Shown piece by piece: positions 30,949-38,158 of a DNA stretch of 64,000 nucleotides (within the stretch, counting starts at the first letter, position 1; every line of letters begins with the position of its first letter). Location: positions 933,501 to 997,500 of the forward strand of contig NZ_CP067341.1 in NCBI RefSeq assembly GCF_016638705.1. The letters run 5' to 3'. A model generated the notes under the pieces. It was not told the origin of the DNA. It did not search any database and was given only the letters and a program-made list of their open reading frames with translations. The position numbers and the translations under genes are program-made. This DNA comes from Lysinibacillus agricola (GTDB lineage: Bacteria; Bacillota; Bacilli; Bacillales_A; Planococcaceae).

Positions 30949-31180
30949 TAGACAAACGCTACTCCTGATTGCATAAAGCTGTATGGTGATCTAATAGTAA
31001 GACCCCGACATACGGCATTTTGTGAGGATCGTCGAAACCGTCTCGTTTTCCTACATGTGAGGCTTGCCTTGGATGAAAAATAATCAAACATATCCCATAG
31101 GTTGGGTTTTTTTAGTATTTTAATCGTAGCATTATACCATTTTAGTTCAGCTTTTCACCCCATATTAATGATGAGGAGCT

Positions 31181-31306
31181 GTTGATTTTTCACGGAGAGT
31201 GGCGACTCCTACGGGATGAGCTTGCGCTGAAAGCCCCGCAGGAACGTAGTGACGAGGAGATTGAAGCCAAGCCCGCGGAAAGCGCCAACTCGGAGTGAAA
31301 ATCAAC
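31181..31306 (+). repeat. Bacillales-type palindromic repeat, classic form
   Basis: About 126 bp with inverted ends GTTGATTTTTCACGGAG and GGAGTGAAAATCAAC. Inside are GTGGCGACTCCTACGGG and CCCGCGGAAAGCGCCAAC, the widely seen Bacillus/Lysinibacillus intergenic repeat layout. It lies in the 760-bp gap between the PgpA-like gene and the binding-protein gene, which has no ORF of its own. Confidence 0.8.
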
Positions 31307-31357
31307 CTTTGTTTATTGATACACTTATTTTATATTTATTCTTTTGTCGACATGCTG

Positions 31358-31445: not shown

Positions 31446-33239
31446 TTAATCATTAGAGGCTTTTAAAAACTCTGTTACTTTTTCACTGTCTGCCTCAAGT
31501 TTTAAGCCTGTATTAACTAGTGGTGAAAGAGTGGATACAGCAGGTTTTTTATTGCCTTGGTAGTAGCTAATGAACTCATCTTGATTAATAGAGTAAAGAA
31601 TTGCTTTACGTAAGTCTACTGAATCTGATATAGCGCGACCAGATGTATTCATTTGTAAATATGCTACTGCATTACTATCAGCAGTATTTAACGTTAGTTT
31701 AGTATCAGATTTTACAATATCTAGCTTTGTTTCTGGTACTGTCTGAAGAACGTGGATCTCACCATTACGTAATGCGGATAATGCACTATCATTATCTTCA
31801 ATAAAACGAACATTGATTTTTGCAATCTTCGGTTCATATTCACTACCTGCACGGTAAGCTGGGTTTTTCACAAATTGTGCTTCGTAATCATTTTTCTTCA
31901 CGAGAATGTAAGGGCCGCTTGCATATAGCTGGTTGTTGTATGTCGCTGCACCTTCTGTCACTGTTGCTTGATCACCATATGCGATATCCTTGTCTGGATT
32001 ATAGCTTGCTACATCATATGTGTTAATGCTTGTTACTTGTTTTTCTGATACGATACCACCAGATTGGTGTGCTAAATAATTTAACACTTGTGGGAATGGT
32101 GTTGGTGTTGTAATTTTAACAACTTGGTATGCGCCAGCTGCATTATTAACAGTTCCCTTATCTTTCGCTAATTGCGTTACGGAAGCAGGAAGGTTTTGAG
32201 ATAAAGCCTCAAACACAGATTGATCAGAGCCTGCAACTTTTTTCTTTTGTAATTCAGCTAAGTCAGAAACCGTTTCGACTTTTTCGATATTTTCATGAAG
32301 ACTGTATGTGCGATGGTCTGGTACTGATTTTGAATCTTTTGCACGGTTTAATGAAAATACAACGTCTTCCGCTGAAACTAAGTCACCTGTATCAACAGCA
32401 GCACCATCTTTTATAGCAGTGAAGTTAATATCATCACGTAAGATGAAATAATATTCTTGGCTACCTTCAGCAATAGCATGATTATAAGATAATGAACCAT
32501 TTGAAACGACTTCGTCTGTATCTGTTAAGTTGACAAGACGAACATACATATTTGTATTTAATGCATTAATAGAACCATCATTTCCTTTAATAGGATCAAG
32601 CGATGTTAACGAACTAATTGTTTGATGTAAAATCAAAGGTTCAGTTGCATTTTTGGATGAATCAGTAAATTCTATGCTTTCCCATACTTGCGCACGAGAT
32701 TTTGGTAGATGCACCGTTTTTGGGTTCACTAATTCAGAGTAAATCCCTTGATATTTATTTGAAATATATAACGGCGCAATATAAGCTTGGTCGAATACTA
32801 AGAGCTGTTCTAATTCTTTATATTTTGCTGCAGCTTCATCACCCGTTAATGTACTTGCTTCTTCGATGAGAGCATCTAATTTTGAATCAGCTACAATACT
32901 ATAGTCACCGCCCGTTTTAAATAAACCACGAACAGCATAGTCAGGATTTCCTGTTACTGTTGTCCAGCTCGAAAGCGCTAAATCATAATTGCCAGCTTCT
33001 TTTTGTGCTGAAAATGAACCATAATCAGGTTGAATATTTAGTTTAACATCAAAGCCATTTTTAACTAGTTGATCACGAACAATATTCATATCTTCCTCGG
33101 AAGCGGCCATTCCTAAAACTTCAATTGCTTTTTTACCTTTACCTTTTGAATCTTTACTGCCTTCTACGTCAGTTTTTGTTTGTACGCAGCCTGCTAATGC
33201 TAACACTGCTATGAATAAGAATACAAGTAATCTTTTCAT
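31446..33239 (-). CDS. circularly permuted SBP_bac_5 peptide-binding lipoprotein
   Basis: A 597-residue lipoprotein (lipobox LALAGC, Cys18) for an oligopeptide-type ABC importer. The domain order is unusual. Residues about 38-195 (VRDQLVKNGFDVKLN, YDLALSSWTT, DYAVRGLF, LEQLLVFDQAYIAPLYIS) look like the C-terminal lobe of OppA/DppE proteins. Residues about 200-597 look like the N-terminal part: TSLDPIKGN, SAEDVVFSLNRAK, ASGPYILVKKNDY, ALRNGEIHVL, VDLRKAILYSINQDEF, ending at ADSEKVTEFLKAS, where a normal protein goes on into the C-lobe. So old N and C termini seem joined and new ones opened in the linker. It is adjacent to two permeases and is the last gene of the minus-strand unit; ATG at 33239 follows GGAGG. 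Confidence 0.85.
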   Translation of the reverse strand: MKRLLVFLFIAVLALAGCVQTKTDVEGSKDSKGKGKKAIEVLGMAASEEDMNIVRDQLVKNGFDVKLNIQPDYGSFSAQKEAGNYDLALSSWTTVTGNPDYAVRGLFKTGGDYSIVADSKLDALIEEASTLTGDEAAAKYKELEQLLVFDQAYIAPLYISNKYQGIYSELVNPKTVHLPKSRAQVWESIEFTDSSKNATEPLILHQTISSLTSLDPIKGNDGSINALNTNMYVRLVNLTDTDEVVSNGSLSYNHAIAEGSQEYYFILRDDINFTAIKDGAAVDTGDLVSAEDVVFSLNRAKDSKSVPDHRTYSLHENIEKVETVSDLAELQKKKVAGSDQSVFEALSQNLPASVTQLAKDKGTVNNAAGAYQVVKITTPTPFPQVLNYLAHQSGGIVSEKQVTSINTYDVASYNPDKDIAYGDQATVTEGAATYNNQLYASGPYILVKKNDYEAQFVKNPAYRAGSEYEPKIAKINVRFIEDNDSALSALRNGEIHVLQTVPETKLDIVKSDTKLTLNTADSNAVAYLQMNTSGRAISDSVDLRKAILYSINQDEFISYYQGNKKPAVSTLSPLVNTGLKLEADSEKVTEFLKASND

Positions 33240-33255
33240 TTAAGAACCTCCATTG

Positions 33256-34704
33256 TTAATTTGATTTTGGATCTAAAGCATCTCGCAAACCATCACCTAA
33301 GAAGTTAAAGGAGAGAACGAGAAGCATAATACAAAGACCTGGGAAAATAGCAACATAGGAATGCGTTTCCAGGTACGTACTACCAACTTTTAGAATATTG
33401 CCCCATTCAGGAATGTGTGGCTCAATGCCGAGCCCTAAAAAGCTTAAACTACTTGTTGAAATAACAGCGCCGCCAATGGTTAATGTTGCTTTAACAATCA
33501 TTGGTGCTAACGAGTTTGGAACAATATGTTTAAAGATGATTGCAGCATCAGATGCCCCCAATGCTCTAGCTGATTCCACGAATTCAAAATTAGAAAGCTG
33601 CATGACATTTGCGCGCATTGTACGAGCATATGTCGGAATTGCTCCAACGCTTAGTGCGATGATTAAATTAACGGTATTGGCACCAAAGGCAGCAATAATG
33701 GCGATAGCTAGTAAAATTCCAGGAATGGCATATAAAATATCAAGACTTCGCATGATCATGTTGTCAGTCGCTTTTCCGTAATAACCTGAAAATGCTCCAA
33801 GTGTTCCGCCAATTAATGCAGGGATAATCGTTGAGAAAAATCCTACAATGAGCGATATTTGTGCACCGAAAACAATACGAGAAAATAAATCACGTCCGTA
33901 ATTATCAGTGCCTAATGGATATTCTAACGAAGGTGTTTGTAACAATGCTCCATAATTATTTTCAGTCGCAAAGTCATAGTCAAATGTCCAAGAGCTTGTT
34001 ACGGATAAAGAAAACATAAATACGATGAAAAATAATCCGAAGACGGCCATCGTATTGCGTAAAATCTTTTCCCAAATTTTTTGCCATTTTTCGATTGTAG
34101 ATGGATTTGCCTTTCGAGCTTTTTGAATAAGGCTATACCCTAGCAATGTCGCAAAAAGATTGCCAGTCAAAGAGGCGATAAGCAGCAAAATACCAGGTAA
34201 CAGCATCCATTTCGGCGCAGCCTCTGAAGTCACATATTTTGCACACAGAATTAACATCACAATATAAAAGAGTGCAAGGAGTAAGAAAAGCCCCATCGCT
34301 AGTAAAAACGTATCTGTGACATACGGTTTAAATAAGTTCAGTGCTGAAATACCGATAATGAAAAGTTGAGTGATGAATGCATAGGCAGCAAAAGTATATT
34401 CAGCTGTCTTTCTTTTTGACACAAGCATAAACGCAAACGATGTAGAGAAAATATTGCCTGAAACTATTGTTAATAACAGTGGATAACCAAGTATTCGAGT
34501 GCTTTTTTGTATGTCACCATGGCTTGCTAAATCCTGTTTAATTCGTAAAGTTAGGAAACCAATATAGGTTGTGGTGATTGCATAAATAATGAAAAAGATT
34601 AAGACAATTGGTCGCCAACTTTGAGTAGAAAAATTATAGCTATAAGCTAGAAACAATAAAGAAAAACAGTAAGGAAAAGACAAATGTAAAATGTGAATTG
34701 ACAT
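33256..34704 (-). CDS. peptide ABC transporter permease (DppC/OppC type) with N-terminal membrane extension
   Basis: A 482-residue permease. The C-terminal ~270 residues are a canonical BPD-type inner-membrane domain, with YPLGTDNYGRDLFSRIVFGAQISL and the EAA-like loop FVESARALGASDAAIIFKHIVPNS. Before it are about 205 extra residues with five or six hydrophobic helices that ordinary DppC lacks. The ATG at 34704 has only AGGA 2 nt away. A GTG at about 34745 has a much better site (AAGGGGGATC) but its frame stops after 37 codons, within a similar hydrophobic stretch; a frameshift is possible. Third in the order permease-permease-binding protein. Confidence 0.8.
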   Translation of the reverse strand: MSIHILHLSFPYCFSLLFLAYSYNFSTQSWRPIVLIFFIIYAITTTYIGFLTLRIKQDLASHGDIQKSTRILGYPLLLTIVSGNIFSTSFAFMLVSKRKTAEYTFAAYAFITQLFIIGISALNLFKPYVTDTFLLAMGLFLLLALFYIVMLILCAKYVTSEAAPKWMLLPGILLLIASLTGNLFATLLGYSLIQKARKANPSTIEKWQKIWEKILRNTMAVFGLFFIVFMFSLSVTSSWTFDYDFATENNYGALLQTPSLEYPLGTDNYGRDLFSRIVFGAQISLIVGFFSTIIPALIGGTLGAFSGYYGKATDNMIMRSLDILYAIPGILLAIAIIAAFGANTVNLIIALSVGAIPTYARTMRANVMQLSNFEFVESARALGASDAAIIFKHIVPNSLAPMIVKATLTIGGAVISTSSLSFLGLGIEPHIPEWGNILKVGSTYLETHSYVAIFPGLCIMLLVLSFNFLGDGLRDALDPKSN

Positions 34705-34766: not shown

Positions 34767-36197
34767 TTAAGACTTCTTCATTTTCGAACGAATGCGTGGA
34801 TCGAAAAAAGCATACAAAATATCGATGAGTAAATTAACGATCGAAATTGTGATGGCAATATAGACGACCCCACCAAGGATAGCTGGGATATCCGGAATAA
34901 ACTGTTTGTCAACAATATAGCTACCAATACCACTAATATTGAAAACTTTTTCTGTAACAGATGCCCCACCTAACATGCCGCCAAAGAGAAGCCCAATCAC
35001 TGTAATAATTGGAATCATGGCATTGCGAATAGCATGCTTTGTAATCACTTTAAATTCATTTAAGCCTTTTGCTTTCGCTGTAATAATGTAATCCTCATGT
35101 ATGACCTCAAGCATACTGGATCTTGTCATACGAGCAATGGAAGCCGTAATGGATGTACCCAAGACAATAACTGGCATTATTAAAGATAACCAGTTTTGAG
35201 GATTGTACGTAGCTGGGAACCACTGTAGCTTTAATGCAAACGTTAAAATAAATATCAATCCTTGCCAGAAGCTTGGAATGGATAATCCAATTAAGGCAAT
35301 GAACATAAACGTATAATCCAAATATGAATTTGGACGAACGGCCGAAATAATGCCGACTGGAATGGCAATAGCGATAGCCATTAATAATGATAGGATGGCT
35401 ATTTCAAGTGTGACAGGAAATTTGTTTACAATGCTTTGTGTAACATCTTCTTTCCCTGCAAAGGAAGTACCTAAATCAAATGTGAATAGGCCAGATAAAG
35501 CATTCCATAATTGAGATAAATAAGGCTGATCCAAGCCATGAATGTGATTAAAGTTAGTTATTTGCTCTGGCGTTGCCGCAACACCAAGTAAGTTTCTTGC
35601 TGGATCGAATGGCGACAAATACAAAATTGTAAACACCAGTGTTGCGACACCTACTATAACAATGAAGCTTTGTAGTATTCGTTCAATAACAAATTGCAGA
35701 AATGGATTCGCAAACAATATGAGTACTACATAAAATAAAACAGCCGGTAAAAAAGTAAGGACCACAAAGTTTTTATGTTTAAGCTGCTGACTAAAAAATT
35801 GTAAATAGGATTGATCTTCTAAGCCATCTTTCAATAAATCTTGCGCTACTAGTTGCTGAAGTTTTGCTTCTGCTAATTTCGAAGCAGTTTCCTGTATTTG
35901 TTTTTCTGGCACAGATTCATGAAAAAATTTAGCTTTGGCTAATTCTTGCTCAGCAAACTCAACCTGCCATTGTGTGAATAAACCCTTTTCTTTGTAGTAC
36001 TGTCTTCGTTTCTCAAAAGCTTGCTGGTATTGATGTGAATGTTTTCTTTTCCGATAAGATAAGTATGTAAAAGGGTGTACTAAAATACTTAAAAGAAAGA
36101 GCAGCGCATTGTAAGACTTATGGTGCATGAGCTTTTGATAAACTGAAAAAAAGAATACATGTTCCTTAGTTGTAGAATGATCTTGTGAAATAACCAT
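34767..36197 (-). CDS. peptide ABC transporter permease (DppB/OppB type) with N-terminal extension
   Basis: A 476-residue permease. Residues about 180-476 are a canonical OppB/DppB domain beginning RILQSFIVIVGVATLVFTIL and with the EAA loop DYIITAKAKGLNEFKVITKHAIRNA. Residues 1-180 are extra: a hydrophobic helix (YNALLFLLSILVHPFTYLSY), a highly charged, probably coiled helical stretch rich in Gln, Lys and Glu, and another helix. The start is the ATG at 36197, 6 nt after GGAGG, not the open-frame start at 36275. First gene of the minus-strand permease unit, divergent from the ATPase gene. Confidence 0.88.
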   Translation of the reverse strand: MVISQDHSTTKEHVFFFSVYQKLMHHKSYNALLFLLSILVHPFTYLSYRKRKHSHQYQQAFEKRRQYYKEKGLFTQWQVEFAEQELAKAKFFHESVPEKQIQETASKLAEAKLQQLVAQDLLKDGLEDQSYLQFFSQQLKHKNFVVLTFLPAVLFYVVLILFANPFLQFVIERILQSFIVIVGVATLVFTILYLSPFDPARNLLGVAATPEQITNFNHIHGLDQPYLSQLWNALSGLFTFDLGTSFAGKEDVTQSIVNKFPVTLEIAILSLLMAIAIAIPVGIISAVRPNSYLDYTFMFIALIGLSIPSFWQGLIFILTFALKLQWFPATYNPQNWLSLIMPVIVLGTSITASIARMTRSSMLEVIHEDYIITAKAKGLNEFKVITKHAIRNAMIPIITVIGLLFGGMLGGASVTEKVFNISGIGSYIVDKQFIPDIPAILGGVVYIAITISIVNLLIDILYAFFDPRIRSKMKKS

Positions 36198-36418
36198 GCA
36201 TTTCCTCCAGACGTAAGTAAAATAATAGATTCTAAAGTGTGGACAAAACAACATCAACACACGCTTAGTAGTCAACTCATTTTTAGCGAGGTCCTACTAA
36301 ATGAATTGCAGGATGAAGATTCAATATTTTTTATATTGTATAATTCCTATCAGTATTGTAAAGTATGAATTATACTAGTAATTAAGTCAATCACAAAATT
36401 TACAAAAGGATGGATTGA

Positions 36419-38158
36419 ATGAGTGAAAAGCTTCTAGAAATAAGCGATCTTCGTGTATCTTTTATAACGGGAGAGACAGAATTTGAAGCCGTTAAAGGCG
36501 TTAATTTTCATGTAAATAAAGGTGAAACACTCGGAATAGTAGGAGAGTCAGGTAGTGGAAAAAGTGTAACGGCTCGTTCAATTATGCGTTTATTACCATC
36601 GCCACCTTCATTTCTAAAGTCAGGAACTATTTTGTTTAAAGGACAAGAGATTACTTCATTGAGTGAAAAACAAATGGAGGCAATCCGTGGACAAGATATT
36701 AGTATGATTTTTCAAGATCCAATGACATCCACAAATCCAACTATTCGTATTGGAGACCAAGTGTCCGAAAGTTTAATAAAGCATCAGTCAATGTCCAAAG
36801 CAGAGGCATATAAGCAAACAATAGAGTTATTAAAGCTTGTAGGCATTCGAGATGCAGAAGAACGCTATAAACAATATCCGCATGAATTTTCAGGGGGAAT
36901 GCGCCAACGTGCTATGATCGCCATGGCACTTGCTTGTCATCCTTCTTTACTAATTGCAGATGAACCGACAACAGCCCTTGATGTAACCATTCAAGCGCAA
37001 ATCTTAAAATTAATGCGAGATATGCAAAAAAAGATGGGTACCTCAATCATATTAATTACACATGATTTAGGCGTTGTTGCTGGTATGTGCGATCGACTTA
37101 TTGTTATGAAGGAAGGCGAGATTGTTGAGCAAGGTACAACAGAGGAAATCTTTGCGAATGCTCAACATCCTTATACTAAAAAACTATTAAATGCTTTGCC
37201 TAAGCTCCATGAGAAAAAACAGCCCAAACCAATTGCGAATGTACAGCTAGGAATTGATAAAAATAAACCATTAATCGAAGTGACACATCTTTCAAAGGAA
37301 TTCGCATTAGGTCGCGGTCAAACGGTGAAGGCAGTCAATGATTTGTCGTTCCATATATACCCAGGAGAAACATTAGGCTTAGTAGGCGAATCAGGCTCCG
37401 GGAAATCTACGACAGGCCGAACTATTTTACAGCTTCATCAACCTACGAATGGAGAGGTCTTGTATCAAGGTATACCCATTACAAGACTAACGAAAAAGCA
37501 GCTTAAAGCAATGCGTCGTCATATGCAAATTATTTTCCAAGATCCATATTCCTCGTTAAATCCTCGAAAAAAAATAGTAGATATTATTGGAGAAGCTCTA
37601 GACATTCATAAACTCGTTAAAACGAATGAAGAGCGTCAACAGCGTGTGGAGGAATTACTGGAACTTGTAGGCTTAAACAAAGAACATGCAGTGCGTTATC
37701 CACATGAATTTTCCGGTGGTCAGCGTCAACGTATTGGCATCGCAAGAGCTTTAGCAGTGGAGCCAAATTTTATCGTTTGTGATGAACCACTTTCAGCACT
37801 TGATGTTTCTATTCAAAAGCAGATTGTAGACTTGCTAAAGGATTTACAGCAGCGCCTAGGATTGACATACTTATTTATTGCTCATGATTTGTCTATGGTT
37901 AAACATATTAGTGATCGTGTCGCTGTCATGTATGGTGGGAAGATTGTAGAGCTTGCAGAAAGTGAGGAGCTGTACGCCAATCCGCAGCATCCGTATACAC
38001 AAGCTTTATTGCGCTCAATACCAATTCCAGATCCGGCGATAGAAAAGCAAAAACATATGGATGCAGAAAATGAAGAGGTACAAACACGCTATGAGATAGA
38101 AAATAGTCAGCTTGTTGAAGTATCCCCAAATCATTGGGTTGCCATAGCATCTACATAG
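36419..38158 (+). CDS. fused DppD-DppF peptide ABC transporter ATPase
   Basis: A 579-residue protein containing two ABC domains. The first (about 5-265) has Walker A GESGSGKS and signature FSGGMRQR; the second (about 285-540) has [12 protein letters not shown] and FSGGQRQR. Both carry the DEP Walker B ([18 protein letters not shown]). Such GsiA/DdpF-style fusions supply both ATP sites to peptide or nickel importers. ATG at 36419 has AAAGGA 8 nt upstream. It is divergent from the permease genes; the 36198-36418 gap must hold both promoters. The oligopeptide/nickel-type C-terminal zinc-like region after the first domain is present in short form only. Confidence 0.92.

Follow-up and report, generated by a model that had tools for sequence, protein, structure and literature searches.

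Sequence evidence for a permuted chain order in the binding protein of a putative Gis-type ABC importer of Lysinibacillus agricola

A natural circular permutation of a solute-binding protein (SBP) has been described in TpMglB-2 (Tp0684) of Treponema, a cluster B protein labelled "Type Ic / Cluster Bc", and the permutation may relate to membrane tethering (excerpts from PMC4990184). The importer GisABCD of Staphylococcus aureus is encoded in the layout gisABCD-ggt, has nine predicted membrane segments in each of GisB and GisC, and supports the use of glutathione (GSH) and glutathione disulfide (GSSG), according to excerpts from PMC10355420. At 250 µM GSH or less, growth of S. aureus depends solely on Gis (excerpts from PMC12510641). 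The SBP of this system, SAUSA300_0203, has an 18-residue signal and an LSG-C lipobox (excerpts from PMC5020093). The string "permut" does not occur in the main texts of PMC10355420 or PMC12510641, and we found no report of a cluster C circular permutant in the open-licence literature, searched mainly by titles and the beginnings of abstracts. The original prediction for the gene described here, that circular permutation of a whole binding protein is rare, needs qualifying: there is a natural precedent in cluster B (TpMglB-2; excerpts from PMC4990184), while a case from cluster C was not found.

We analyzed a stretch of 64,000 nucleotides (the window) from the genome of Lysinibacillus agricola, which is a single contig of 5,285,903 bases. 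On the minus strand of the window, an intact open reading frame at 31446..33239 encodes a GisD-type SBP_bac_5 lipoprotein of 597 amino acids, identified by its profile matches and by an AlphaFold2 model. It matches PF00496 with 138 bits, against a curated cut-off of 32.4. From reading the sequence, residues 1-18 (33186..33239, minus strand) are a signal peptide with the lipobox LALAGC, ending in Cys18, and a ribosome-binding site, GGAGGT, stands ahead of the ATG (33246..33251, minus strand). Cys18 is invariant in 40 aligned rows of homologues. Upstream on the same strand are an OppC-type, GisC-like permease with an N-terminal extension of about 200 residues (permC, 33256..34704) and an OppB-type, GisB-like permease with an extension of about 190 residues (permB, 34767..36275). 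A fused OppD-OppF-type ATPase of 579 residues, GisA-like, is divergent from the permeases (36419..38158, plus strand). These three partners were assigned from domain matches and homologues.

An Rfam scan of 8,001 bases around the operon for RNA regulators gave no matches, and a scan for promoters and terminators near the operon gave no signal above that of shuffled sequences. At 31177-31310 there is a dispersed repeat of 134 bases with inverted ends (GTTGATTTTTCAC/GTGAAAATCAAC). Counting itself, it matches 18 places in the genome, five of them over nearly its full length, and its folding z-score is -1.92.

We consider it highly probable that this gene encodes the lipid-anchored SBP of a Gis-type ABC importer and that, in its chain, the cluster C fold has undergone a natural circular permutation. 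Sequence comparisons confirm the order of the chain: residues 36-198 or so (32646..33134, minus strand) correspond to the usual C-terminal part of SBP_bac_5, and residues 199-597 or so (31449..32645, minus strand) to the usual N-terminal part. When we searched the L. agricola genome with PF00496, the 3' part of the gene matched profile positions 13-253 (112 bits) and the 5' part matched positions 297-366 (28.8 bits, E = 1.9e-6, under the family cut-off). The ordinary N-to-C order is absent from the gene, as profile positions 297-366 precede 13-253. The eight further SBP_bac_5 loci of this genome each gave one PF00496 match in the ordinary order. Both topologies are thus present in one genome, eight loci with ordinary matches and a single gene permuted. 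The permuted order also explains why domain tools recognize no more than a part of such proteins.

We also built a profile from 13 ordinary SBPs, eight from this genome and five from other genomes. Residues 47-170 matched its positions 389-516 (25.8 bits) and residues 210-576 matched positions 57-345 (118.3 bits). We then rotated the mature chain in silico in steps of 5 residues and scored the best single match to this profile. The unrotated chain scored 118.3 bits; the highest score, 145.9 bits, came with residue 191 as the start, and starts from 166 to 211 formed a plateau. The optimum falls in what we regard as the linker that joins the old C-terminus to the old N-terminus (EFTDSSKNATE, residues ~190-200; 32640..32672, minus strand). 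Two distant relatives behaved alike: L070 rose from 97.5 to 138.8 bits at start 188, and L044 rose from 121.2 to 169.4 bits at start 199. For an ordinary SBP that is a member of the profile (L102), the optimum was the unrotated chain, at 692 bits, and rotation dropped the score to 348. When each ordinary SBP was scored with a profile of the other 12, all 13 gave a single match in the ordinary order, with the optimum unrotated or rotated within the termini, and rotation cut their scores to about half at worst.

Comparisons to known structures with phmmer gave the same order. In Lmo0135 (5isu), query residues 435-571 aligned to 171-306 (33.4 bits), residues 268-327 to 70-131 (11.5 bits, weak alone), and residues 41-166 to 346-474 (10.0 bits, also weak alone). 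Residues 36-198 aligned to residues 380-489 of 5u4o (E = 7.3e-5), and the equivalent residues of the relative L070 likewise match the C-termini of SBPs. The profile matches, the rotation scan, and the 13 of 13 controls thus agree with the predicted order, in which the C-terminal part comes first and the N-terminal part second; the halves are complete and contiguous, the lipobox is intact, and the adjoining permeases are of the matching class, as had also been proposed. Neither the normal domain order nor an unrelated N-terminal domain, the two contrary outcomes named beforehand, was seen. Nor is there a sign of a cluster B (Type I) fold: the protein matches PF00496 and proteins of the cluster C type.

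On one point the original prediction did not hold. It had the chain ending at the point of normal entry into the C-lobe. The phmmer alignment pairs residue 573 with DppA 312, so residue 597 is, by extrapolation, near DppA 336, inside lobe II and about 75 residues beyond the normal lobe crossover (using our assumed limits for the DppA domains). We take the break to be in the loop that follows the "DPEKAKELL"-type helix of lobe II, again with the domain limits and helix motif assumed. By the same limits, residues 36-198 are presumably the second part of lobe II plus the last strands of lobe I. We saw no remnant overlap between the chain ends: the end is at about profile position 366 and the start at about position 378 (both extrapolated).

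The termini of ordinary SBPs sit on lobe I and are adjacent in the ordinary fold. In the permuted chain, given the assumed domain limits, the break is inside lobe II, which should therefore carry the lipid anchor as well as the two new termini. Because the signal peptide and the cysteine precede a segment of lobe II, the lipid tether would leave from lobe II and not from lobe I. Under this model, the old N- and C-termini, neighbours on lobe I, would have been joined by the short linker, and new termini would have opened in a surface loop within lobe II. Like other members of the family, the permuted chain would form a clamp of two lobes that shuts on a small peptide-like ligand and passes it to the permease formed by the products of permB and permC.

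The homology of the system to S. aureus GisABCD extends to all of its components. Compared with the S. aureus record NZ_CP077929 (L080), the ATPase is 50% identical, permB 48%, and permC 43%. The SBP is 40% identical over residues 2-218; only residues 1-224 are present in that record, so it is the permuted N-terminus that is seen in S. aureus GisD, and the full permuted order is seen in other relatives. The start of the S. aureus SBP fits the signal and lipobox given for SAUSA300_0203 (excerpts from PMC5020093). NZ_CP077929.1 is a linear S. aureus "plasmid unnamed2" in which the gis genes occur twice, head to head, with the second set broken; this double arrangement is probably an assembly artefact of the chromosome. 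Three genomes of one genus (L070-L072, 2.5-2.6 Mb) contain a divergent ATPase, permB, permC, the permuted SBP, and a gamma-glutamyltransferase (Ggt) homologue, which is the gisABCD-ggt layout in excerpts from PMC10355420. As in GisABCD, the ATPase gene is divergent from the permease-permease-SBP genes in the window, and 35 of the 36 loci whose SBP is full length share this layout (divergent ATPase; permB-permC-SBP). By sequence, then, the window appears to encode a Gis-type ABC importer, without ggt, that shares ancestry with the S. aureus glutathione importer. In a variant operon (L076:6892-13792), the divergent fused ATPase is replaced by a separate gene for an ATPase of 327 amino acids, which has the orientation of permC and the SBP and is located between the two.

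The permeases of these operons are long. Where the SBP is full length (36 loci), permB has 446-512 amino acids and permC has 390-537. For comparison, seven of the eight ordinary SBP genes of L. agricola adjoin a permease gene (OppB-type by its look) whose product is 309-321 amino acids long; at the eighth locus there is no permease within the stretch examined. The N-terminal extensions of permB and permC have no Pfam match of their own above the cut-off. When we searched 398 genomes of the class, the set also surveyed for the SBP, with the permC extension alone, 33 had it, and every one of these carries the permuted SBP. In two of these genomes (G291 and G556), the match spans residues 112-210 only. 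Just two SBP-positive genomes of the class lacked a match to the extension: G583, which has only a remnant of the SBP, and G516, whose permC has 403 amino acids. This tight pairing points to co-evolution of the permuted SBP with the extended permeases. We tentatively suggest, with real doubt, that the two form a mechanistically distinct Gis-type subtype of the Opp class, in which the SBP is tethered through lobe II and the extensions of permB and permC make room for it or keep it in place, with effects on hinge dynamics, docking, or retention. If so, S. aureus GisABCD would be, to our knowledge, the only member whose function has been studied. Near the 5' end of permC in the window (about 34640-34690), the first ~20-35 residues are in another frame than in relatives of about 498 amino acids. 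The shift is beside a run of T whose length differs from that in L029, and it could be a sequencing error or a real change.

By homology, the SBP probably supplies the importer with a small peptide-like solute. In OppA and DppA, the aspartate of the GDYNEP motif holds the amino group of the peptide. The residue aligned to this aspartate of MppA is V95, in the motif WTTV, and this valine is invariant in 40 of 40 rows, so the ordinary anchoring of alpha-peptides has probably been lost. A specific importer of glutathione or glutathione disulfide, like S. aureus GisABCD, is possible but rather doubtful. The homologous operon has the same layout as S. aureus gis, the full-length SBP is 37-41% identical to the SBPs of ggt-carrying loci, and a glutathione-binding SBP (3m8u) is among the PDB matches, at rank 11 among the Foldseek matches described below and also found by phmmer. 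The evidence that GisABCD supports the use of GSH and GSSG (excerpts from PMC10355420) and is the sole route at 250 µM GSH or less (excerpts from PMC12510641) bears on the same side. On the other hand, identities of about 40% leave room for another ligand. We also found no Ggt in the L. agricola genome or in any of the 32 genomes of the genus, with a positive control that was found in 8 of 14 named genomes, and this absence weakens the case for glutathione as the substrate. Of 37 loci, just 3 have a ggt gene adjoining the operon, although a neighbour could have been missed in two of the 37 (L034 and L078), which end within 1.3 kb of the stop codon of the SBP. The likeliest ligand in Lysinibacillus would be a glutathione-like or other short peptide.

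As for its origin, the permuted gene could have arisen by tandem duplication followed by trimming. We searched 151 genomes with residues 200-597 for an unpermuted sister. Besides the permuted family, this query reached four SBPs (27-37% identity over 135-153 residues), all in the ordinary order, and neither an unpermuted sister nor a duplication intermediate was seen in the 151 genomes. Because no unpermuted close relative was found, the two parts are not traceable to one parent, which leaves some room for a chimera, formed when a second SBP gene was fused on and supplied the N-terminal part. The authors of the TpMglB-2 study raised a similar doubt about their protein (excerpts from PMC4990184). 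We think a chimera unlikely: after rotation, a single match to one ordinary profile takes in both parts, and the constraint on the two is similar (dN/dS of 0.021-0.132 in the two parts taken separately, by NG86). The first of these arguments is weak, as any two parts of cluster C proteins might fit, but a permutation of one gene is the reading that we prefer.

We modelled the SBP with AlphaFold2, using an alignment of 40 of 76 rows that contained permuted homologues only and excluded near-duplicates and the L073 fragment. The model is a single fold (pLDDT 85.5, pTM 0.82), with ten-residue blocks above 90 pLDDT in both parts. Residues 36-198 modelled alone gave a poor result (pLDDT 65.0, pTM 0.42). 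Foldseek found 72 PDB matches for the full model at E ≤ 0.001. The best 50 of these 72 are without exception solute-binding proteins, with YliB (1uqw, E = 7.5e-12) and DppA (1dpe) at the top. The target TM-score is at most 0.53 among these best 50, with the sequential alignment covering part of the model; low scores are expected because a sequential aligner meets a permutant. The title of PDB entry 8qlh (AliC) records a domain-swapped dimer in the superfamily, so the halves of the SBP might pair between chains in the same way. This is very improbable here, as the monomer is modelled with confidence and the linker connects termini that are adjacent in the ordinary fold.

We surveyed 261 genomes of the family for homologues of the SBP (E ≤ 1e-20). 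There were matches in 108, of which 107, including L. agricola itself, have a full-length match. The full-length homologues other than the window's own are 61-93% identical to it. Because one genome (G173) has two copies, there are 108 full-length places in the 107 genomes, and at each of them the whole query is matched in the same order. The exceptions are a 75-residue fragment (G179) and a full-length copy with an internal stop (G165). A second draw of 261 genomes led to identical counts, apart from one additional short, broken piece (G215). In the genus, 24 of the 32 genomes in the family survey have the permuted SBP. With these full-length homologues across the family, whole-gene dN/dS values of 0.036-0.118 in five comparisons (NG86; dS exceeded 1 in two of the five), and the operon order kept in 35 of 36 loci, the claim that the permutation is natural stands, and the permuted SBP is probably functional. 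That it is an artefact of assembly or rearrangement, or a piece of an SBP behind an unrelated N-terminal domain, can be set aside almost entirely: although the frame difference near the start of permC suggests that the window may contain small errors, the order recurs over the whole query at so many places, and residues 36-198 match the C-termini of SBPs.

More broadly, a survey of 398 genomes of the class (E ≤ 1e-30) gave matches in 35, of which 11 are from the same family and 24 are from three other families; these include three genomes whose SBPs are 39-41% identical and one (G583) with a remnant only. When we searched 398 genomes of the phylum with a profile, just four matched, L. agricola itself among them, and all four belong to the class. 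Named carriers are Lysinibacillus, Ureibacillus, Metasolibacillus, Bacillus ndiopicus, Tetzosporium, Chryseomicrobium, Paenibacillus, and Neobacillus. In a phylogenetic tree, the rows nearest to the SBP of the window are from Lysinibacillus sp. KCTC 33748 and L. xylanilyticus. The rows from Paenibacillus and Neobacillus mesonae interleave, which suggests horizontal spread. A plasmid of Metabacillus dongyingensis (L081, NZ_OK052578.1) carries a complete Gis-type operon with the permuted SBP and is a possible route of spread. In G583 (L073:6168-6803), only a remnant of 215 amino acids is left of the permuted SBP; it adjoins a scrap of the end of the ATPase on the opposite strand, as if the operon between them had been deleted. 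A 23% identical relative from a scan of contigs (Cohnella, L049) proved to be an SBP in the ordinary order, not a permutant.

To judge by the open-licence literature, no natural circular permutant of the large cluster C peptide-binding fold had been described before this one. The bacteria that carry it are ordinary and can be cultured, and the function of the system to which one relative, S. aureus GisD, belongs has been measured. With both topologies in the L. agricola genome, it offers a direct way of asking if hinge motion and docking depend on where the termini and the lipid tether are placed. Compared with OppA, DppA, MppA, and GsiB, the protein shares the Pfam family, the predicted fold, and the classes of permease and ATPase, and it differs in its chain order, its termini, and the position of its anchor. 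Unlike ordinary SBP_bac_5 proteins, it has inserted stretches between about residues 316 and 435, and unlike MppA, it has V95 for the aspartate of GDYNEP. It resembles S. aureus GisABCD-Ggt (SAUSA300_0200-0204) in having a divergent fused ATPase, two long permeases, and a permuted lipoprotein SBP; in the window system, however, the permease extensions are longer, no ggt adjoins the operon, and the genome lacks Ggt. TpMglB-2 (excerpts from PMC4990184) is likewise a lipid-anchored binding protein that serves an ABC importer and is naturally circularly permuted, but it has a cluster B sugar-binding fold with another break, whereas the SBP of the window is a cluster C (SBP_bac_5) protein of about 600 amino acids.
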